This document shows, one piece after another, positions 1 through 63,360 of a DNA stretch of 64,000 bases. The stretch covers positions 13,275,001 through 13,339,000 of the forward strand of contig NC_092673.1 in the NCBI RefSeq assembly GCF_964355755.1. The letters are read 5' to 3'. The translations under genes were made by a program, and so were the position numbers. Numbering within the stretch: the stretch's first letter is position 1; every line of letters starts with the position of its first letter. This stretch comes from Antedon mediterranea (taxonomy: Eukaryota > Echinodermata > Crinoidea > Comatulida > Antedonidae). The notes below the pieces were generated by a model. The model did not search any database. It was not told where the DNA came from and was given only the letters and a program-made list of their open reading frames with translations.

Positions 1-5
1 ATGAT

Positions 6-1945
6 TTGAGTTCTTTAATTAATAATGAAGCTGAAAATATCTGCATTGAAATAGAATTAAAACCAAAAAATTATATTTTCTCAGTAATATACCGACCACC
101 AGAAAAATCCATAAAAACTTTTAATTTTTTAAATTGTATATATTCAGCTAATTTATTTCCCGTAATAGACAGACCCACCCGTCTCACCCGTACATCTGCT
201 ACGTTAATTGACCATATCTACTCTAACAATTTTCATGAAAATATTTTTTCAGGATTACTGTATTGTGACATTACTGACCATTTACCTATATTTTTTATTT
301 CTCATACATCCAAAATTTCTGGTCAGAAATAATTTCGATTACAGATGACCTGGATAAAGCTTATAATTCTTTTCACACTAAATTTATGAACATTTATGAT
401 AAACACATTAGAATATGTAAAAAAAAAAAAAAAATTTCGCAAGCAAAACAAACCATGGATAACAAATGGCATTATATACAATCTGGCAAAGCCACTGATA
501 AAACTAAATATACTGATTATAGAAACAAATTAACTAATCTAATAAGAATAGCACGTAGTATACATTACAAAAAGCAATTTGACACACATAAAAATGATAT
601 TAAGAAAACATGGCAAACTATAAATTCAGCTCTTGGCAGAAATATAAAAAGTAAACTTCCAACATATTTTTTAGTAAACAACATAAAAATTGATGACGAA
701 ATTCAAATTGCTAATAAATTTAATAAATATTTTGTTGATACTGGCCATACACTTTCACAATCAATTAACTCATCTCATTCAAACTTTTCAACATTTTTAA
801 ACCAACCCAACAATCACTCCATGTTCCTTTCACCAATCACTGAAAGAGACATAATTAATGCAACCGAAGAGCTCAAAAATAATAAAAGTCCTGGTGTAGA
901 TGAAATACATTCCAACGTTATCATTATCATTTCGCCAACAATATACATCAATAAACTCAACCAATTCTCAACTCTTGCATGTTACCTGTGGGGTACCACA
1001 AGGGTCAATCCTTGGCCCACTACTCTTTTTAATTTACGTTAATGATCTTCCAAATGTTTCAAAATTATTTAATTTTATCTTATTTGCAGATGACACAAAT
1101 GTTATTATTTCTCACGAAAACAAAAATAATCTTGTATCTATAATTAATAATGAACTTAACAAAGTGTCTCTTTGGTTTAAAGCAAATAAGTTATCATTGA
1201 ATATTTCAAAAACAAATTATATTTATTTTAATATTAATAAAAAAAGTAACAAACAGCTAACAGAGCAATTATATATCAATGGCAACCAAATAAAGAGAAC
1301 AGAAAACTTAAAATTTCTTGGAGTCACTATTGACTCGGAACTAAATTGGAAACCTCACATAACATATTTAACTAAAATAATCTCGAGAAACGTTTGAATT
1401 TTAAGTAAATTGAAGTACATACTTCCTTTAAACATCTTATTTTCCCTGTATAATACTCTTATTTTACCCTATTTATCATACTGCAATGTTGCTTGGGCTA
1501 CAACTGTAGATAAATTTACTGGATGCTGCCCCTGGACAGGTTCTGATAACGCGAAAATTAATTCTCTCTTTAAATTACAAAAAAAGGCTATCAGAATCTG
1601 TTCGGGAGCACCTCCAAAATCTCATACTAAACCACTTTTTTATTCTCCCAATACTTTAAATATATTTGATATAAATAAACTCCAAACAGCTTTATTCATG
1701 TTCCGCCTAAATCATAATAAATTACCAACTCAATTTTTCGAAATTTTATTCATTCTTACAACACCAGATCTTCAACTGCAAAAAATCTAATATACGAAAA
1801 GCATACCATATTACTTAGAAGAACATCTTTTATTTACAATGGACCGTATATATGGAACAACTTACCGCTCAATCTAAAAGCAATAACCATCATAAATACA
1901 TTTAAAACAAAATACAAACAAACACTTATTTCACAATTGCCTTAA
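6..1945 (+). pseudogene. Non-LTR retrotransposon (L2/Rex1/CR1-like) EN-RT ORF, degenerate
   Basis: Broken LINE polyprotein. Residues from 6-332 hold the end of an APE-type endonuclease (VIYRPP, TSATLIDHIYSN, TDHLPIF). A linker at 386-900 ends in the RT entry motif NNKSPGVDE. At about 915 the sequence jumps to CGVPQGSILGP and then FADD (RT motifs B and C, 900-1397), so roughly 110 residues including the motif A aspartate are deleted. Further stops and frameshifts lie at 1395-1410 and 1790. The C-terminal connection domain runs to about 1945 (YIWNNLPLNLK). Dead element, 5' truncated by the window edge. Clade assignment is inferred from motif wording only. Confidence 0.85.
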
Positions 1946-2181
1946 GACTGTTTTTTTTTTTCTTTTTTGTGCCTTTTTGTTTAATTTTATTTGTCAATTT
2001 GACGAAAGAAAGAAGTTTGTTTTTGTTCTCTCACTTAAATTAAATAATTAAATATATTAATTATCTGGAGGACCAAACTTAAAGCCTTGGCTTAATGCGT
2101 CCTCCTCACACAATTGTATTTATTAATTTATGTTACTGTTCTATTGTATTGTATTGTGTGAAACAATAAACTTGAAACTTG
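1946..2181 (+). mobile_element. 3' UTR and tail of the LINE
   Basis: AT-rich 3' untranslated region directly after the LINE ORF. It ends in AATAAAC followed by two ACTTGAA-like units, consistent with a short 3' tandem tail rather than poly(A), as in CR1/L2/Rex1-type elements. The next element starts within about 15 bases. Confidence 0.6.
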
Positions 2182-2193
2182 ATATTCCAAAAA

Positions 2194-2352
2194 CACAATA
2201 GGTGCAGTTGATGGCAAGCATGTAGCGATTGACTGTCCAAAGTACAGTGGGTCTATGTACTATAATTACAAAGGCTTTCACAGCTCTGTGCTTATGGCAA
2301 TCTGTGATGCCAAAGGTAATGATGCTGCAATTTTTTGGCAGTTTTTAAAGAT
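2194..2352 (+). pseudogene. PIF/Harbinger transposase fragment (DDE_Tnp_4)
   Basis: One open stretch reads [14 protein letters not shown], then [24 protein letters not shown]. This is the block around the first catalytic Asp (DGKH) of PIF/Harbinger transposases. About 50 residues survive and no flanking transposase blocks are seen nearby, so it is a scrap. Confidence 0.8.
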
Positions 2353-3308
2353 GCCGAGTTAGGAAAGTTGAAGGTACCTGTTTCATTCCGATGTACACAC
2401 AACGGTGGGGTTTCCCTAAAGAACATTGGTCAGGAAGGCAACTCTTGTTAATTATGCACTCTAATCTATAATAATGGGATTCGCGTAAATCAAACAAAAA
2501 TCGGTTAAAAATAAAAATACAAAACTTAAAAATAGTATGTTACATTGAACATACCTCAATCAAATCGTGCGACAACTCATCGCGTTCTAATGGCCTTCGA
2601 ACATAAATCAATCAAATCAAAGCATAAAACTTAAGTAAACTGTGGCTGATTAGCCTAAATCAATAGTTGACTCAAAATATCAAAACTCAATCACTTAAAA
2701 CTTAAAAGAACCAAATGTGTGTCCCGTTGACACAAACTTATCCACAATATATCGTTATCATCACAACTTTATCGATTTAAGCATTTTTATTCACAGGTAA
2801 TTACGATTTCAATCAATCGACAAATTCGACTTTTGTGTTCAATGTCAAAAAAAATTACAATTAAAAGTACTAAGAAAATCTCCTGTTTTTGTATATCAAT
2901 TAATTAATGCTTGAGATTAACGACTCAAAGGTTAAACAAAATATTTTTTACAAAATGATTGTCGTTCTTTTCAATATCTCAATATATCGATCATCAAAAT
3001 TCAAAATTAATCTTTATCAAAAAAACTTGTTACAAAATCAATACTTAAACATAAATTCAATTCTCTTTTATTATTAAAAAAAATTCTTGCAAAAAATTAA
3101 GTCAGTAACTCGTATTATACAAACGTTTTATGAATCGTTTTGGTGATCCACTTATCGGTATCTGTTTATCATTAATAATCTCTTTAATCAATTTATCTGT
3201 ATCATTATATCTGTCAATATTCCACCAAAATTTGCGATCATTGGATTCGTGTTTTGTTTTATCAGTGTTGCGTTTGGCTAAAGTCGGTTTAGAATACGAA
3301 ACTAAAAC
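2353..3308. other. No gene seen; probably 3' end/LTR side of the gypsy element
   Basis: AT-rich DNA with short ORFs only (for example 3130-3312) and no recognisable domain. It lies immediately downstream, in element orientation, of the minus-strand gypsy integrase, so it should hold the polypurine tract and 3' LTR. I could not place LTR ends because no second LTR is present in the window. Confidence 0.4.
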
Positions 3309-5165
3309 TTAGAAATGTCCTGCTTTAAATCTACCGCGGTTTAATGTCATATTTGAATCAATAGGTGCTGTCATGATTAAATTAGTTTGTTCCTTAATTT
3401 GTTCTTCTTTCATTACTTTAGTTGGATGTGTAAGGATATCGGATTGCAATTGGGCTGGTGTCCTATCATGTTCGTCGACAAATTCAACATTGGTTTCGTC
3501 ATTTACTACATTAATGGTGTTTTGGATTTTCTCATTATTATCATCAGTGGGTTCATTCAACAATTGTTTAAGTTTTGGGAGACGTGTAAAATGTTTGCGT
3601 TCTTTGGGCGTTCTCATAAAAAAAGGTTTCAGTCTGTTATAATTGAATACGTCTCGAAGTATTTCTCCTTTAATCGTTGCTAGGATGTAGTGTGTTCTGT
3701 CTAATACTTCATGAATTACTAATGGTCCGACCCATTCTGCGGCGATTTTCTTTGAATTTGCCGTTAGTGATGATGATGTTGGCTTGTATATATATACGAG
3801 TTGTCCTACTGAGTAAATTGGGCTTTTTTCTAAGCGTTGGGAAATTTTTGAGTTTTGGACGTTTTGTTGTGTTCGCTGTAATTGTAGCATTGTCTGTGAA
3901 ATGTTTTGAAATTTCTTCTTGAGGTGTTCAAAGTATTCTTCATAGGAATGAGACAATCCTGAAATAGGGTTAAATGCTAATAAGGTCAAACTTGGAGGTT
4001 GACGGCCAAAAACTAATTCGTAAGGGGAGTGGTTTCCTTGATGTGGGAATGAGAAAGAATTATAAGCATAACATGTTGTTGATACAAATCTAACCCAATC
4101 TGTTCCGAATTGGTTAAGGTTGACCTTCAACAGGTCCGATATGGTGCGGATATGACGTTCAACTTGTAAACTACCGTGATTATGGACACTGATGATTTTC
4201 CTATCAATGTTAAGGGTGTTAATAATTTTCCTGTAAGGGAGGTTGCTGCATCTGAAATAAGACGAGATGGGGGTACAAAAATACTGATTACCTTTTGAAT
4301 TAGTGCTTCACAAATAGTTTCGGCATCAATGGATTTCAAAGGTACACAAATCAAAAATCTAGTAATTTCATCACATACTACCAAAATATGTTTAAAACCT
4401 GAAGGCGATGTTGGCATACTCTTGAAATCTAGACTGAGTGTATGAAAGGGACGGTAAGTTGCTGGTACTTGATCGTGTAAAGGACGTAATTTATCGGTTT
4501 TGGGGCGAAATTGTTGACATCTAAGACACGCTTGAGTATAATTGTTGACTTTCTCGAACATGTAAAATAATTTCCTAATAGTTAGATAAGTACGCATCGT
4601 ACCTTGGTGACTACTTAACAAATTGTTGTGATACTGAGAAATAATAGACTCGGCTAAGTTTTCAGGAACAGCTAATTGCAATACAAATTCTTGGAAAAAT
4701 AAACGGAATAGTAAACCGTTGCACAATATGTACTGCTCCGACTTATTCTGAACTGCACGAGCTGCTTTCTTATCAGCTGGAAGGATATCATGAGCTAAAT
4801 AGTCGTAAACTGGCTTAAAAAATGGTGAAGTTTCTTGTTCAACACGTAATTGTCTAACATCTACTGGGAGGTTGTAATCTCTAATTATCTTTCTTTGAAT
4901 AACATCCATTAATCTATCTAAGTCTTGTTGTTTTGGGATGTGTGCTGATTTGGGATGTGTGCTGATTTAAATTCAGTTATGTTGGGTACTAGTTGTTTGG
5001 GCGATATATACAATTCAACTGGTACATTTCGATGTGTAGTATCTTTGCTTTGCTTATTTTTGTCTACTAGTCGTTCCTCTGGAGGTTGTCGAATGTTTAC
5101 ATTACGTATTGGGGGTGGTGTTACGATAGGTGGCGTTATGACAGGCGGTGATCGATGTGCATTTG
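3309..5165 (-). pseudogene. Ty3/gypsy pol remnant: integrase with zinc-binding N-domain and GPY/F-like end
   Basis: Read on the minus strand, 4909-4127 gives an integrase zinc-binding domain (His pair near YHNNLLSSHQG, Cys pair CLRCQQ) and core with SLDFKSMP and ISDAATSLTG carrying the first two catalytic Asp. A frameshift near 4190 separates the catalytic Glu (in QVERHIRTI, other frame) from the ORF at 4130-3309. That ORF holds the core end (NHSPYELVFGRQPP) and a GPY/F-like module (EWVGPLVIHE ... YNRLKPFF). Coding sense extends to about 5165 behind a second frameshift. RT, RNase H and gag are absent; the remnant abuts the amine-oxidase retrocopy. Inactive. Confidence 0.85.
4935..4968. repeat. 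17-bp exact tandem duplication in gypsy pol
   Basis: Two adjacent identical 17-mers (GGGATGTGTGCTGATTT) at 4935-4951 and 4952-4968. Because 17 is not a multiple of three, the duplication by itself shifts the integrase reading frame. Removing one unit would make the upstream minus-strand frame continuous with the integrase ORF, so this is a clear disabling lesion. Confidence 0.9.
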
Positions 5166-7396: not shown

Positions 7397-10300
7397 TTGA
7401 AAGAGAGAAAAAAAATGCATGATGCATTAAAGAAAAGCCAGGGTGGAATTGGCTTCCTCCTTCAACAAAGCATCAAAATTATTAATGATAACCTATTTGA
7501 CTCAAAGTCAGATGATCTAGAAAGACTTTGGATTAAAGTTCAATTAACCAGTAATACCGATTCTATATATTCCTTATGTGTAGTATACTTTCCTTGTGAA
7601 GGTACAAATAGACAATTATCATCTGAGCTCTATTCGCAACTACTATCAGAGATACTTTCAATCCAAAACCAAGACCAAAATTCAAAATTAATTGTACTAG
7701 GAATCCTTCAATGGTAAAATTGGCAATAACATTTTACAAGGAGATGTGTTACTAAACAATAATGGTAAAGGCCTGTTGAATTTAAGCGAGGACAGTAATC
7801 TTATTATATTAAACAGTAGCACAAAATGTAGTGGTAAATTTACCTGGGTAAACGGTAACTCATGCAGCATTTTAGACTACATTCTAGTATCAGAAAGAAA
7901 CTTAGGAAGTGACCACAATGTACTATTGTTAGAACTAATTGGTGATAGTAATTTAGAAATAAACAATAAGAAACAAAAGGTGATTAAAAACAATAAAGTT
8001 ACTTGGAATATAGATAAAAATACTGACTGGGAACCTTTCAGGAAAGAAATTAAAACAAATTTGAAAACTGGGACACCTCAAATTTAAACGCAAATGAAGC
8101 ATGGAGGATATGGAAAAATAATTTAATTACGGTAGCAGAAACCACATTGGGTCATAAGAATAATAATAAAAAACGTAATTGTTGGTATGATGAAGAAATT
8201 GACAGTTGTATCAAAAAAAGGAAAGATGCTTGTAGATCCCATAGAATCTACCAAAAAACGAAAAATAATAATACATTTAAACAAGAGGTATGCGATTCTC
8301 TATGGGATGATTACCAAGAAATAAGAAAACAATGCAAATCACTAACAAAACAAAAAATATTACAAAAGAAAGTACATAGATGTTCCGAAATTATGAATAA
8401 AGGGGGGTCTCAATGCAAAGATTTTTGGTCCGAGCTGAAAGATAAAACACCCGTAGTCACACCTAATTCTATCTTTATTCCAGGTACAAAAAATGTTACT
8501 TTTGATAGAAATTGTATTAAAGACTCATTAAAAACTTACTTTAGTAGTATTAATAAACATAAATTAAGTACTAACAATAATTACCTTTATCATGAACCTC
8601 TATTACGACATACCATTGGTATATGCTATATCAAAATGTAAAAATAATAAGAGTCCTGGTGATGACTCAATAACCAATGAGCTATTGAAAAATGGAGGTT
8701 CAGAAATTGTAGAAGCATTATATAAGTTATTTAAGAAATTATCTACACTTGAAACTATACCCGAGGAATGGAACATTGGTAAGATTATACCAATACATAA
8801 AAAGGGTGATCGCAAAGAGTTAAGTAATTACAGAGGCATAACCTTAAACTCTACTGTATCTAAAATATATAATAAACTTATTTCTCAAGCAGTGTCAAAC
8901 TTCATTGAAGAACATAATTTGTTATCGGAAGTTCAGGGTGGGTTTAGGAAAGATAAAAGGTGTGAAGACCATATTTTTATATTAAAAATTATAATTGCTT
9001 GTCGCCAAGCGGAAGGGAAAAAGACATTTCTTGCATTTATGGACTTCAGCAAAGCGTTTGACACTGTTTGGCGAGATGGGTTGTTTTATGCATGTAAAAA
9101 CATGGGTATTAATGGAAAAATCTCCTTTGGTGAATATGAAACTGACATCTTCAACATTGATGAAGGTGTCAAACAAGGCTGTCCACTCTCTCCTATTCTA
9201 TTTAATATATACATAAATGAACTTAACAAAATTATTAAGGACAGAGATTTAGGCATTAATATATTTGATAAAAATACCTAGGCATGCACATATCAAGACA
9301 TTTAAAAGATACATGCCATATAGATGAAACGATGAAAAAAGGAAGCAGAATTATTGCATATATAAAATCAATCATAAATGAACAAAATGATTTCAATAGA
9401 ATTATGTATGGTAATATACTTTGGAAAGGCATTGGAATACCAAGTATAATGCATGCAGTATTTGGTTTTGTGAAAGCAAAACATCTATCCAAAAAATTGA
9501 AAATATGCAATATCAAATGGCTAAATATCTTTTAAAAGCACCAAGGTATGTTGCAAAGGAAGCCCTTTATGGTGAACTTGGATGGCAATCGATTGAGTCC
9601 ATACTATCGGATAGAGGAATATCCTACTTCAAAAGATTGAAAAACATGGACGAAGGTCGTTTACCAAAAGTTCTGCTAAGAGCGCTCTTTGCACTTGAAA
9701 ACACTTTAAATTGGAATTGGCTACATAATATAAAATCTATTTTAATCAACTGTGATATACAAAAACATTTTAACTTAGAATATGCTAATAATTGGCTTAA
9801 AGGTTTCAAAGAAAAAAACACTATAAGAGATAAGATGAAATGGCTTGAGAATGCTAAGAATAAACCATCACTAAGTAATTATATAAGGTATAAAAATGAA
9901 CCAAAACTAGAAAAATACTTATTAGATAAGTGTAACTACCATGCTTCAAACCTAAAATTTAAAATTCGCTCCAATTCTCTACCACTTGAAGGTAGAAAAG
10001 AAGCATGGTCATCTCAAAATGCAGGTATATGTTTATTGTGCAATTGTAATGAAAAGGAAACTGTATATCATTTCGTATTTGAATGCAAACGACTTGAGTA
10101 CGTTAGACATCCAATACTCATGAACCTTAAAGATGAGCTAAACAACAATAATCTATCCATGTTCTGGGAATTGTTTACTACTAGCTCTCTAAATCTTAAA
10201 TACCACTTATTCTTCGACGATCTTGAAATCCATAATGAATTTAAAATTACACCAAATCAATTGACCCATGATGTATACGAATTAGCAAGTATTATTTTCG

Positions 10301-10575
10301 ACAAACATTGTAAAATTTTTCTGACCATGGCTTGGAACACACGAAATGATATATATAATACAATTCCTTCTCAAATTTAATTTATTCATTTTCTTAGTAT
10401 TTAATCTGTCTCAGTTTTCTTAAATTTTTTGTTGTTGTTATTTTGTTCTTATGTCTAATTTCTTGTTTTGTATTTATATTTAAGTGTGTATGTATTATTT
10501 TTCACTGTAAACTTGTTGCACATCTCATTGAGACTGTGCCTCTGATTTAAAAGAGATACAATAAAAGTTCAGTTC
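7397..10575 (+). pseudogene. Non-LTR retrotransposon with C-terminal zinc knuckle, degenerate
   Basis: EN pieces occur at 7397-8087 (LERLWIKVQL, SSTKCSGKFTWVNG, GSDHNVLL), with frameshifts near 7705 and 8085 and a deletion before GSDHN. A basic linker spans 8147-8641. RT spans 8592-9281: NKSPGDDSI, IIPIHKKGD, NYRGITLNSTVSK, FMDFSKAFDTVW (motif A), GVKQGCPLSP (motif B). The YxDD motif C is deleted at about 9281. The RT C-terminus is in 9284-9535 and 9421-10380, including ALYGELGWQS and a knuckle CLLCNCNEKETVYHFVFEC (C-x2-C-x9-H-x4-C). The 3' UTR ends in (AGTTC)n at about 10567-10580. A related copy lies at 28470-30640. Confidence 0.85.
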
Positions 10576-30744: not shown

Positions 30745-33175
30745 ATGATGTGTTCGACCGGGCTACGTGTGCCGCTACTTATTTTGAACTTATTTCTTGG
30801 CCTCTATTTTTCAAGTTTTAATATGGGATTTTCATCCAGAAATCAATGGCTAAGGCCAGTCGATGGATACTCTGAGCCGGTAAGCTGCAACATTCCTAGC
30901 ATCGTTGTATGTAAATGTTGGAATTTGTATCAAAGCAGTACGACTACGAGTGTTGTTGCATTCCAACGTAGCAGCAGACCGTCAAGGAAGACCTACAGTG
31001 CACCACGTTTGCTTTATTCTAATTCCACTGTTACATTCTGTATTCTTTTAAGTGGCGATGTTGAATCGAATCCAGGTCCAGGTAATACTCAGACATCTTA
31101 AGTTAAGGTATACTATCAAAACGTACGTAGCCTGAAGAATAAAATGGACGTATACAACTCAGATCTGAATGCACACCTAATTCAGAGCAATTTGGATATT
31201 GTCGCACTTACGGAAACATGGTTAAACTGCAACGTGCTCGATTCTGAACTTTCCGTTTCTAATTACACTTTATTTCGACGCGATAGAGATACTGATAAAC
31301 GCGGTGGTGGTATCCTGATGCTAGTGAATAACAAATTTACCTGTAACCGAGTGGAACGCCTAGAAAGTGATTCAACGGAGTTCATGTGGATAGAGATTCA
31401 GCTAAAGCGGCGTATTAGCCTACTTGTTGGATTATTCTATAGACCACCAAACGCTACACCCGATGTCCTCCGTCGTTTTACTTCGTCTGTGGAAATCGCT
31501 ATGCTCTACTACAAAAACAGTGAATTCCTCATTCTTGGAGATTTCAACCTGCCCGAAATTAATTGGAGTAGCAACCCTTATTCTGCTCCAGCTCAGTCCA
31601 TGGGAGAACACTTACTTGATGTATTGCTTTCTAGCTGTGGCCTATTTCAATGCAATACGTACTGTACAAGAATGGATAAAATGCTTGATCTTGTTATTTG
31701 TAGTAAAAACATTTCCAACAAAGTCTATACTGCTAACGATATTTTTTTATCTGACCACTCATCTTTGAGAATTGATTTCCGTTTAAATTTTGATGTTAAA
31801 TGTAGTAATGATAATTTGAATCGTAAAAGTATAATTTACAATTTTAAAGCACTTGATGTCAATAATCTATGTAATACTCTTAACTGTGTTCCATGGAGTG
31901 TCTTAATTGATTTTGAAGGTGATTTAAATGAAGCTTTGGATATGTTTTATAATTTGTTAAATGCTGCCGTCAATGACACAGTGCCTAAAATTAGAAAGCG
32001 CAGAAAGCTTCCTCCGTGGTTTGACAATGAGTTGAGAAGTGCGCTTCAACTCAAAGAAAAGTATTATAGATATCTGAAAAAAAATAATAATCGGTTAGCC
32101 CAAAGTAATTTCAAATTTGCTCGCGCGTGCAATAAAAAGTACAAAGATTACTTGGACTCTTTGGCTAAGCAAATTGTCACTAACAGTAAAAGATTCTGGA
32201 GCTGGATGAAAACTAAATACAAGTCAAATAATCTTCCTTCTGTCATGAGTCACGATAACATTTCATTCCAGTCTAATTATGATAAAGCTACCACATTTAA
32301 TTCTTATTTTCATTCTTTTTTCAGTGAGCCTTCTCCGGACGTTCCCCGGGACTATCCAGGTCTTCCTGACTATGCGGTGGATAACTTAAGTTCTCTGTCT
32401 GTGAATCAGCATTCTGTGGAAAAGGCACTTAGTAACATTGATATCAATAAAGCTACTGGCATTGATCAGATTAGTAACGTTGTCTTAAAGGGTGCCTCCT
32501 CCTCACTCTCTTATCCGCTTTGCAAATTGTTTCAGCTATCTATTAATTCTGGGGTTTTTCCTTCATCTTGGAAACACGCTAATATTGTCCCAATTCACAA
32601 GAGTGGTCCCAAAAAACTAATCTGTAGTGTAACTATCGTCCTATTTCGTTATTGCCTACTATGAGCGCATTGTGCATGATGGTTTGTCATCACATGTTGC
32701 TAATGCTTTAAGTCCTAGGCAGCATGGTTTTGTCTCTGGGAGATCATGTCAAACCAACCTCGCACTGCTTCTTGCTACATCATACGATGCAATTAACAGC
32801 AAGAAGCAGTGCGATGTGATTTACACTGATTTCTCTAAGGCTTTTGATTCCGTTTCCCATGATTTGCTTATTTTTAAACTTTCAAAATTTGGTTTATCCG
32901 GTTCACTGTTAAGTTGGTTTAAAAGCTATTTAACTAATAGACAACAGCGTGTTGTCATTGGGGGAGAGACATCTGATTGGCTCCCTGTGTTATCGGGCGT
33001 TCCGCAGGGCTCGATCCTGGGCCCGCTTTTGTTTAATTTATTTATCAACGATCTTCCTTTAAAATTTAATCATTCCGAGTCTCTTTTATTTGCTGACGAT
33101 CTGAAATTGTTTAAAGTGATTACCACTCCACAGGATGCTTTTTCACTTCAGGAGGACCTGATTGAAATTATGTGA
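30745..33175 (+). pseudogene. CR1/L2-type LINE with N-terminal 2A-like peptide, EN and RT; 3' truncated
   Basis: The ATG at 30745 is in frame with everything to the first defect. Residues about 1-104 form a hydrophobic and basic leader; then GDVESNPGPG (2A motif, 31054-31083). A lone TAA at 31099-31101 interrupts the frame, which resumes QNVRSLKNKMD. EN (31144 to about 31790): ALTETWLN, RGGGILMLV, GLFYRPPN, LGDFNLP, LDLVICS, SDHSSL. RT: NKATGIDQIS, NIVPIHKSG, then two frameshifts (about 32624 and 32665); DFSKAFDSVSHDLL, GVPQGSILGP, LLFADDLKLF. It stops near 33175, so the RT C-terminus and 3' UTR are missing. Otherwise unusually well preserved. Confidence 0.9.
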
Positions 33176-58659: not shown

Positions 58660-59769
58660 ACTGTAATTTCAGCTTACTCTGACTAGGCGTGAAAAGACAA
58701 AATTCGGATATTATTCATTTTTTTAAATAAATTAAGCACAAAAAATAGGCCTACTAGCCTATATACTGCCTAATAAAAGGCTAGGCAGCCGCTACCCGAC
58801 TGGGGCATGGTCTAGATCTAATAGATATACACACACCTATGCACTAATCTTAATAACCCCGGAATGTTTATATAATTAATATAAGAGTAGCCAGACTTTT
58901 TTAGTATCTAGGCCTAGTTAATTATAACTTATGTAGTAAATAGTAGTAGCCTAGGCCTACTGTATACTACTGTAATACTATTTATTTATTTTTGTGTAAA
59001 CTACAGATTATTAATGTATTTGATATCTATTTCATTTACCTTCAATATCTTATATTATATAACACCTAAATAAATTCCTGTCATTTGATTGGACGATTGT
59101 GGGTCACATGGCGTGCAATAGTACGCTCTATTAAACGATCGTTTAATAGTACTTTTTGAAACATTTTTGTGTATGAAAAAAAAACCTTTCGCGGATAAAA
59201 AAAAATCTAGTACACAAATTACCCTATGATACGGCTCTGTACTGTGAAATACAACAGCGCCACCTGTCGTCTGGTCTCGGTTTTATTTGTAAACACCACC
59301 GCGAGATATGCAACAGCAGCAGATATTTGTGTACGATTTGGACATATATGTACTAATTTCATTCAAAAAGGCATTTAAATTAGCTTTAGATCGTTTTTAG
59401 GATTTTGATTAATTAACGGGGACATCTCTACAAGACGTGGAATTGTTGGAAAACCCATAATTAGCCAAGATAAGTTCCAATTGTCTGTCAAAGTTTTGCC
59501 TTTCAGCCAAGCTGGTACTAGGCTACTAGGTCTAGCCTGGGCCATGCTAGTATTAGGCTAGGCGTTTTAGCCTTGCTAGGCCTAAGACATAATTAACACT
59601 AAAGTAGGTGTGTTTATAAATCCATATAAATATAACATTTAATATAATATTAAAAACCAAATGATACTGTTTTTAATTAATCAATGTGAATGAAATGTAG
59701 GCCTTTGGCTAGGGCTACCTTACCTTATTTGATTCAAATGACAGGAATCTATTTAGATGTTATATAAAA
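58660..59769. other. No gene seen; TAGGCCTA clusters and a 22-bp palindrome
   Basis: AT-rich with TAGGCCTA-type motifs at 58745-58800, 58910-58960 and 59515-59590. No protein motif. Confidence 0.35.
59128..59149. repeat. Perfect 22-bp palindrome
   Basis: Reads identically on both strands: two 11-base halves meeting at the CGATCG centre, CTATTAAACGA then its complement. AGTAC sequences on both sides extend it imperfectly. Confidence 0.9.
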
Positions 59770-59892
59770 CAAATAATGAATGTTTTATATTCGTGTAATG
59801 GTACAAATATATATCAACTCGGCTGTTGCCTCGTTCATCATTTACCTCATGCCATTATTTGTACCATTACACTCATAAACATTCATTATTTG
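59770..59892. mobile_element. 123-bp hairpin MITE
   Basis: CAAATAATGAATGT at the left end and its complement at the right, then after a small internal mismatch GTGTAATGGTACAAAT paired with ATTTGTACCATTACAC. Arms of about 36 bases; the centre contains CTCGGCTGTTGCCTCG. No coding content. Confidence 0.8.
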
Positions 59893-60002
59893 TATACTAT
59901 TAAACAGAGAAACCAATTTGATGAGAAGAGTTATAAATCTGTATCAATCAGACAGAAAGGTATGTTTAGTTACACTTTTCACAATTCCAAACTGACAGGT
60001 AA

Positions 60003-60770
60003 TAGCAGGGTTGCTAACTTCCATTTTTTATGAAGATTGTGCATTTTGTGACAAAAGCACCAAATTTGGCACAAACCTTCTTTAGGGTATATCTAACAAT
60101 TCTAGAAGGGGTGCCCAAAAATCGGAACAATTTAACGACGTCATTTGGACCACGCCCTTTTTTTAGTATTACGTAATTAGGTGAAAACTTAAATCTTCGT
60201 ATATACATACCAAGTTTGGTATCAAATTAAAACTCATGACATGTACATTGCAATACACACATAAAAAACATATGATTTCTCTTCAGACGGAATATATAGG
60301 TCAAATAATGTAATTTTCTGTCATATTGAAAGGGATTTCAATCAAAACACGCCAATATTGGGCTATGTTATGAACATTGTAGTTATAAGAACAACAACAT
60401 TCATTTTTGTAATACAACTACTAATATATATTTATCCTGTATCAGTTACTTTCCTTTAACATAATATTAGGAACCACTGAAAAAAAGTATATAAAACATA
60501 TACTGTATCAAACTTGGCTCAATAATCACTGGACTAAGTAAACAGACAAAAGACCATTTGACTGACAATTATGGCGTTAGCATCCATAGCAATACATGGA
60601 GGTGATTATCAACTTTACTTTTATGAAATTATTTATCTGGAAACTAACACTTATAATGGTACAGAGTTGCTAGATGACGAACAGGTTCCACGGCATGGAT
60701 AACAAAGACCAGTGCAAGAAAGACCTGCTGAACGGTACTTGCAGTTCCCTGAGCAATGCAGGCAACCAAT
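60003..60770. repeat. Left inverted-repeat arm
   Basis: Pairs with about 62620-63357. The minus strand of 60651-60760 encodes a relic of the Cys-rich tail (CYPCRGTCSSSSNSVP), and minus-strand 60208-60014 mirrors plus-strand 63162-63355. Confidence 0.85.
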
Positions 60771-60957
60771 TCCTCGATAATTGTTCAGAACTTCTGGTCT
60801 TGGATGCTCGAGATTGTGCCAATGAAAGTGCAGTAGTGACAGTTCGTACAATTCAGGATGTAGGTACTACCCAGTACCATAAATATTTCAAGGAAGTTAT
60901 TCTCGACAGAAGTGTTGCAATTATTCAACAAGCCATCAAACACCATGGTCAAAATCA

Positions 60958-62741
60958 GTGTCCAAAACAAAGCGACTGTATATTGCAAGTCAATCTCGTG
61001 ATGGAGATTTGGAAGACTTCTTCATGCACGAAAACCAGCCATGGCCACCCTCTTTGGCAGTAAATGGAAAGCTTCGACTACCAACTAAGAAGTCTGAGTT
61101 GCTACAGCATTTGGAGACTGAAGGCCAGCCTGAACCTCCTACATATTTTGATGTAAAGGTGTTTGATGGAGCTGCTATTGTCCATGCTCTTTCCAGCAAC
61201 CATGCATTTACATTTGATGACTACGGTGATAAGGTGAGTACATTTCTTTGCATTCAGGATTGTATCTATTGTTTAACCACCATATAATTGGTCACTTCTA
61301 TATGCGGATAGTTATTCTTGTATCATTTGTATGACAGGTCTTTCTACCGTGGACCAGACAGCAGCTGCAGAATAGTAACAGAATTGATATAGTGTGGGAC
61401 ACTTACAGAACAGATAGTCTTAAGCAGTCTACAGGAGAAAAAAGAGGAAAAGGGGTCAGGAGGAAAGTTGGGGGACAAACAAAGATTCCAGGGAATTTTC
61501 CAGACTTTCTGAAAGATCCAGTAAATAAAGAGGAGTTATTTAACTTTTTAACTACAAAGGTGTCTACCCATGATTAGTCTGACTGCATCAGGTAAGTTTT
61601 ATTATGATACATACTAATTTGTTTTGTTTGTAACCAAACGATTAATTTACTTATACAGTTTCATACCAATAATTAATTAAAAAGGCATATTAAATAGTAA
61701 GTAATTCTTGATATATGTCCTGTAGGCGAGTCTTTTGTATGTTGACATCTACTCAACCTATGTCAATCTGCGACCATGAAGAGGCCGACTCCAAGATGTG
61801 CATTCACATTGATGATGCCTTAAAGAAAGGTAGCAGGGCTATTTTGGTGCGTACAGTTGATACTGATGTCATTGTTATCCTGGTTGGTATTTTCTGCAAT
61901 CTAATAGCCTGTTATCCTGGTACGTGTATCTGGGTCGCATTTGGCATGGGTAAGCACTTCCAATATTTTAATATAAATACCATCTGCCATAACCTAGGAG
62001 AGGATAAGTCAAGAGGGCTGCCAGTATTTCATGCATTTACTGGGTCCGATACTACATCCCAGTTCTTCGGAAAAGCAAAACACTCCGCATGGGAGACGTG
62101 GAACTCATTTCCAGCAGTTACAGAAGCCTTTCTTTTCATGGCACATCACCCTTTCAAATCTCTAGGAGTCAACTCATCTCAATTCCAGTTGCTAGAGGAG
62201 TTTACATGTCATCTATACGACAAGACAAGTACTTTAAGAAGTGTTACTAAGCTAAGACAAGATCTTTTTTCAAGAAAGGCACGGACAATGGACAACATTC
62301 CTCCTACACAGGTAAGGGGAGCTTCCATATAATTGTCAATTGTCGTTTAATAATTTATTATCAGGTTCATGTTTTTCTTTCATTAAAAGGTAACACCAAT
62401 CTTTAAATTGTTTATTGCAGGATGCACTTTTACAGCATTCCAACAGATCCATATACCAAGCAAGCATTTGGACCACCAGTCTACAGCCACAGCAGAATGC
62501 TCCATCACCAGAAGACTTTGGTTTGACTAAAACTGGCAGTACATGGACACCAGTCTGGACCATACTACCTGAAGCATCCAAGGCATGTAGGGAATTGCTA
62601 AAGTGTGGCTGCAAAAAGTTGCCTTTTTGTTCAGGGAACTGCAAGTGCTGTTCAGCAGTGCACTGGTCTTGTTACCCATGCCGTGGAACTTGTTCGTCAT
62701 CTAGCAACTCTGTACCTAAGTGTTTGTTTCCAGATAAATAA
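60958..62741 (+). pseudogene. Four-exon gene: acidic nuclease-like motifs plus CXC-type Cys-rich tail; one in-frame stop
   Basis: Exons: about 60958-61233 (donor GTGAGT), 61338-61591 (GTAAGT), 61726-62311 (GTAAGG), 62421-62741. All junctions keep frame. Exon 1: RLYIASQSRDGDLEDFFMHE, FDGAAIVHAL. Exon 2: VFLPWTRQQLQ, GKGVRRKVGGQTKIPGNFPD; a TAG at 61575-61577 stands where relatives usually have Trp. Exon 3: CDHEEADSKMCIHI, VRTVDTDVIVIL, FHAFTGSDTTSQFFG. Exon 4: WTILPEASKACRELLKCGCK, CSGNCKCCSAVHWSCYPCRG TC. The (E)EAD / DTD / TGSD spacing resembles PIN/FEN-like nucleases (inference). The family is common in cnidarians and echinoderms with no assigned function that I know. Start codon not found; 5' end uncertain. 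Confidence 0.7.
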
Positions 62742-63357
62742 TTTCATAAAAGTAAAGTTGATTATCACCTCCATGTATTGTTATGGATGCTAACGCCATA
62801 ATTGTCAGTCAAATAGTCTTTTGTCGGTTTACTAATAGTCCAGTGGTTATTGAGCCCAAGTTTGATACAGTATATGTTTTATATACTTTTTTTCAGTGGT
62901 TCCTAATATTATTTTAAAGGAAAGTAACTGGTACAGGATAAATATATATTCGTACTATTACAAAAATGAATGTTGTTGTTCTTATAACTACAATGTTCAT
63001 AACATAGCACAATATTGGCACGTTTTGATTGAAATACCCTTCAATATGACAGAAAATTACATTATTTGACCTATATATTCCGTCTGAAGAGAAATCATAT
63101 ATTTTTTATGTGTGTATTGCAATGTACATGTCATGAGTTTTAATTTGATACCAAACTTGGTATGTATATACGAAGATTTAAGTTTTCATCTAATTACGTA
63201 ATACTAAAAAAAGGGCGTGGTCCAAATGACGTCGTTAAATTGTTCCGATTTTTGGGCACCCCTTCTAGGATTGTTAGATATACCCTAAAGAAGGTTTGTG
63301 CCAAATTTGGTGCTTTTGTCACAAAGTGCACAAAAAAAGTGCTAAGTTACCCTGCTA
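62620..63357. repeat. Right inverted-repeat arm
   Basis: Begins within the final exon (around GTTCAGGGAACTGCAAGTGC) and includes the stop codon at 62739-62741, the 3' UTR and the terminal ACCCTGCTA. Confidence 0.85.
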
Positions 63358-63360
63358 TAA

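Follow-up and report, generated by a model that had tools for sequence, protein, structure and literature searches.

The element described here occupies positions 60003–63357 of a 64,000-nt stretch of Antedon mediterranea DNA (NC_092673.1; this whole stretch is called the window below). It is a complete mobile element with termini TAGCAGGG, and the trinucleotide TAA is duplicated just outside its two ends, at 60000–60002 and 63358–63360, as a first-pass annotation had noted. The same annotation had seen inverted arms of about 0.75 kb, and self-alignment places these at 60003–60766 (left, plus strand) and 62618–63357 (right, minus strand), in an alignment that spans 768 columns, 736 of them free of gaps and 708 of these identical (96.2%). 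The left arm begins with TAGCAGGGTTGCTAACTT and the right arm, read inward, with TAGCAGGGTAACTTAGC, and over their outermost ~34 bp the two arms differ by small indels. The sequence TAGCAGGGT occurs twice in the 64-kb window, both times at an element terminus, against a mean of 0.17 occurrences in shuffled sequence.

Inside the element lies a four-exon gene remnant on the plus strand. A tblastn search with full-length relatives places a 5'-truncated exon 1 at 60728–61233, with a change of frame at ~60946–60973; it is followed by exon 2 (61338–61591), exon 3 (61726–62311), which carries the HEEAD, VDTDV and TGSDT acidic motifs of an XPG/FEN-like nuclease, and exon 4 (62421–62741), which encodes a CXC-like Cys-rich tail. 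Introns 1 (61234–61337) and 3 (62312–62420) are bounded by GT..AG and lie where the proteins of relatives continue unbroken in tblastn alignments, across DYGDK/VFLP and PPTQ/DALLQH, respectively. Intron 2 (CAG/GTAAGT..TGTAG/) lies at 61592–61725, or alternatively at 61562–61725; the consensus donor CAG/GTAAGT leaves an in-frame TAG at 61575 in exon 2, at a site where many other copies read ...THDY, and the weaker donor at 61562 gives a chain that is open from 60883 onward. The four exons with canonical splice sites proposed earlier stand, qualified by the frame change, by the TAG and by their covering no more than a portion of the family gene. Homology begins at 60728, 60743, 60749 or 60761, depending on the query, near the inner end of the left arm, and this arm abuts the 5'-truncated gene. 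The nearest protein match, at 99% identity along 63% of the query, is to an uncharacterized protein of the crinoid Antedon mediterranea.

The last exon runs 124 bp into the right arm, to 62741, and the arm alignment shows this exon end in antisense within the left arm, in line with the earlier claim that the Cys-rich tail is copied there. In this stretch the antisense copy in the left arm reads CKYRSAGLSCTGLCYPC and the gene itself CKCCSAVHWSCYPC, the gene being 9 nt shorter; a C-T-x-L-C motif stands at this position in most of the long relatives printed, and the antisense copy is less worn than the gene's own last-exon sequence.

When the outer 498 bp of the left arm were compared with the genome (354 Mb in 18 contigs), they matched at least 40 places (scored, among 136 candidates), and a reading of the window unit as a one-off duplication was dropped. 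The window unit and 38 fetched stretches cover all 40 listed places, one of them within L018. A single match over element bases 1–3355 was found in 23 of the 38 copies, at identities of 91.9–99.6%. Both ends were placed in 34 of the 39 units; 32 of them are flanked by an exact target duplication of 3 bp and none of the 34 by one of 4 bp; mismatched pairs of left and right flanks agree at 3 bp in 6.4% of cases. This comparison of ends and flanks, proposed with the first-pass annotation as a check on its DNA transposon, upholds that identification. In a count by eye, TWA accounts for 8 of the 32 duplications, and 16 start with TA. Three copies (L026, L027 and L028), inserted at different sites with TAA, GCA and TAG as their duplications, share 100% identity over 3398 bp and therefore suggest that the family has moved very recently.

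All 34 delimited units pair one distinct left end with one distinct right end. In six of them (L023, L025, L033, L034, L035 and L038) the interior is inverted relative to these ends, the outcome that would be expected of a crossover between the arms; these six, which retain ~120 more codons (~350 bp) of the gene (L023 being assigned from its whole-element match alone), may descend from a single event. We note that L018:301-4334, 4.0 kb long, carries a further partial arm beside its right arm and still has a perfect ACA duplication outside. Five further places with the gene were fetched; one of them, C5:23543700-23545250 (91.7%), belongs to the window family and has arm sequence on both sides, its left outer end being unseen, and the other four belong to other families.

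The long relatives of this gene, from several animal phyla, encode proteins in which an N-terminal half with three invariant residues (D96, D271 and E304, a candidate D-D-E triad) precedes the nuclease part. This D-D-E half was found neither in the window unit nor in any of the 38 fetched copies. The frame-breaking deletion QQAIKHH^RLYIASQ is common to the window unit and eight other copies (L011–L017 and L031). Over exon 3, in 36 of the 39 loci, mean pairwise nonsynonymous (pN) and synonymous (pS) differences are 0.022 and 0.030 (pN/pS 0.72) and 10 of the 36 carry a stop codon, so that constraint among the copies is weak at most. The "spliced nuclease-like gene" of the first-pass annotation is thus not a working nuclease gene in the window but a truncated, broken remnant, and, because of the shared deletion, the stops and the weak constraint, the coding part of this form is probably a passenger.

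The predicted structure of one relative, P0010, has an XPG/FEN-type fold by structure comparison, and a set of seven acidic residues is conserved in an alignment of 85 sequences, with the HEEAD, VDTDV and TGSDT motifs present in the window copy as well. The seven acids lie on the predicted FEN fold and are presumably its metal-site ligands. The PIN/FEN-like site suggested earlier for these residues accordingly finds its place in a predicted XPG/FEN-type fold. Precomputed Pfam matches assign DUF6589 (PF20231) to P0008, P0060, P0087, P0143, P0152, P0162, P0174, P0183 and P0222; this domain may be the Academ transposase core, and a literature search on DUF6589/PF20231 returned nothing related.

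A search of the same genome for long frames (33 scored of 1107 candidates) found full-length relatives, whose duplications, like all those outside the 34-unit set, were read by eye from printed flanks. The unit at C8:4419930-4426679 (6750 bp) has a 1559-amino-acid frame without a stop, ends TAGTGG[A/C]GTCTGTTAGGGAT, arms that are 96% identical over at least 688 bp and a CTA duplication. That at C10:9693922-9700035 (6114 bp) has TAGTG ends, 607-bp arms at 99.5% identity and an ATT duplication, and its frame is interrupted by one TAA. As read from the printed sequence, the arms of these two do not reach the 3' end of the gene, leaving gaps of roughly 110 bp (C8) and 390 bp (C10). A more distant clade (~32% protein identity to P0149) is represented by C8:13748208-13755949 and C5:29668161-29675902, each 7742 bp long and 99.9–100% alike in the fetched pieces, with 1247-amino-acid frames, short terminal inverted repeats (TIRs), TAGGCCATCGGGTG ends and duplications ACA (C8) and CCA (C5); this pair, too, has probably been mobile recently. 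A truncated relative lies between TAGTAGGG ends with a TTA duplication on contig L002, probably host DNA, of a mussel-symbiont assembly. TAG...CTA ends and 3-bp duplications are common to five lineages, and the HEEAD...VDTDV...TGSDT...Cys-rich family therefore belongs to DNA transposons, as had been surmised from the window alone.

Family members also appear in other assemblies filed as bacterial. A contig filed under a Planctomycetota metagenome-assembled genome (MAG), L001, carries a 1466-amino-acid frame that is open at the contig end, and no terminal repeats of the family kind. Both it and L002 (a Bathymodiolus symbiont assembly), whose ends look like those of an animal transposon, may be host DNA in bacterial assemblies, and P0217 (a Sedimenticola MAG) may be a similar case. 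A search of viral contigs for the family confirmed none of 23 stretches.

We take the nuclease of the AcademX lineage of Academ transposons to be of the XPG type, and the fold predicted for P0010 together with the conserved acids agrees with this, the frame of the window copy itself being broken. The references for this lineage are reportedly Kapitonov and Jurka 2010 and Kojima 2020. AcademX makes 3–4 bp duplications, and the two Academ lineages encode a helicase or a nuclease (PMC10045372); the 3-bp duplications found here fall within that range. A literature search found no paper that names Academ together with XPG or with echinoderms. Bivalve Academ consensus sequences average 5565 bp (PMC10294476), and the same-genome relatives of 6750, 6114 and 7742 bp, with their TIRs, reach that size (~5.5 kb or more), which the window unit does not. 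Left unclassified at first, the window element thus fits AcademX so far as this could be judged, and we consider it, with a probability of roughly 85%, to be a non-autonomous, 5'-truncated and internally deleted derivative of an Academ (AcademX-type) cut-and-paste DNA transposon.

Several observations weigh against this assignment. Membership was judged by features described in publications. Pfam searches gave no nuclease family for the window protein (two weak, chance-level matches in the exon-1 frame) or for seven long relatives (weak DUF6589, CXC and DUF2631 matches only), and a sequence search of PDB gave no relevant match, only HflX and a defensin with E above 0.1. The D-D-E half has no clear structural match, the longer model finding HzTransib at E 0.27, and a second structural look, which barely tested this half, listed no transposase. 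Among the copies, L011 and L014 lack a target duplication and five of the 39 units (L019, L042, L043, L045 and L048) could not be delimited. Of the full-length relatives, C8:4419930-4426679 matches the window element over no more than 36 subterminal bp (86%), and C10:9693922-9700035 has no significant DNA match to it; an autonomous element with window-type arms was not found among the long frames scored.

Alternatively, the XPG/FEN-like protein alone might move the unit, the truncated form being the working form of a self-sufficient transposon. The D-D-E half was found in no delimited copy, and these copies have moved nonetheless, some very recently, and L002 shows a truncated relative with TIRs; set against this are the frame-breaking deletion shared with eight other copies, the pN and pS values and stops of exon 3, and the full-length relatives with similar ends in the same genome, which together make such an element quite improbable. 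Still less probable is a PIF/Harbinger-like element, of a superfamily with 3-bp duplications, that captured a nuclease gene. TWA target duplications are the hallmark of PIF/Harbinger, and the TAA of the window and the TTA of L002 agree with it, but only a quarter of the scored duplications (the 8 of 32 above) do; moreover, the nuclease follows the D-D-E half in long relatives from several animal phyla and is therefore no local capture. That an unrelated local inverted duplication arose around a host gene, with the copies as segmental duplications, can be practically dismissed, since apart from the two units without duplications the delimited units have their own 3-bp duplications directly outside common ends, and identical units lie in different flanks.

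On the Academ reading, an autonomous protein of ~1300–1560 amino acids, which combines a D-D-E half at the N terminus with an XPG/FEN-fold nuclease at the C terminus and a Cys-rich tail of CXC-like type, would bind the TAG...-ending inverted repeats. Its D-D-E half would join the ends to the target at a stagger of 3 bp, which would account for the duplication of that length, and its nuclease would trim or cut whatever strand or flaps are left. The window element has kept the ends, the long arms and the nuclease-coding 3' part, but its left interior and the N-terminal half are gone; as the D-D-E half was found neither in it nor in the fetched copies, it was probably mobilised in trans by a protein made elsewhere.

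Long arms as such are found in two full-length relatives too, and what distinguishes the window form is that its arms extend into the last exon. They probably grew inward over the end of this exon, most simply through gap repair in which right-arm sequence was copied onto the left arm. A "double right end" model, in which the left end is a copy of the right, is weakened by the distinct ends of all 34 delimited units and further by those two long-armed relatives, and survives only as such inward growth of native arms. It is conceivable, if rather unlikely, that the long near-perfect arms are substrates of the element's own FEN/GEN1-like nuclease, cut as hairpins or four-way junctions formed from single strands or cruciforms; if so, inward growth of the arms, even across the unit's own gene, would make a unit a better substrate and let it amplify, and the interior would be flipped by crossovers between arms, as in the six inverted copies.

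Elsewhere in the window, a 39-nt inverted repeat that lies immediately to the left of the element (59050–59088 and 59734–59772, 90% identical, with a spacing of 645 nt) is perhaps another small element. Frames read by eye resemble a retroelement integrase (overlapping frames at 3309–4966, minus strand) and fragments of endonuclease and reverse transcriptase of a long interspersed nuclear element (8054–10380 and 31102–33175, both plus strand).

The ends, duplications and recent copies tie to DNA transposons a large animal protein family whose named members, among the matches listed, are mostly "uncharacterized" or "hypothetical", and its C-terminal half is predicted to be an XPG/FEN-type nuclease; together these provide a rule by which many gene models can be annotated. 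This feather star, which has both a full-length frame free of stops and identical copies of recent date, is a place to test why a cut-and-paste transposon has a flap-type nuclease beside a D-D-E transposase, and the window unit shows terminal repeats spreading over an element's own coding exon.

Among known systems, AcademX, as described in PMC10045372, PMC4455052 and PMC10294476, resembles the present family in encoding a nuclease, in its 3-bp duplications and inverted repeats, and in the large protein that the 6.1–7.7 kb relatives also encode. The window unit differs from it in being 3.4 kb long, without a transposase half or an intact frame, and in that its 0.75-kb arms include the terminal part of the last exon of its own gene. 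From the EXO1/FEN1/XPG superfamily of 5' nucleases the element family is set apart by an identity of ~12%, by its Cys-rich tail and by the joining of the nuclease, whose activity is predicted, to a D-D-E half in full-length relatives. Interior deletions and non-autonomous copies are frequent in fold-back and long-TIR families. The long arms of such elements, for example Tetris (PMC4079207) and long-TIR MULEs (PMC3310237), are like those of the window element, whose arms differ in holding coding sequence of the element's own gene and in belonging to another superfamily.
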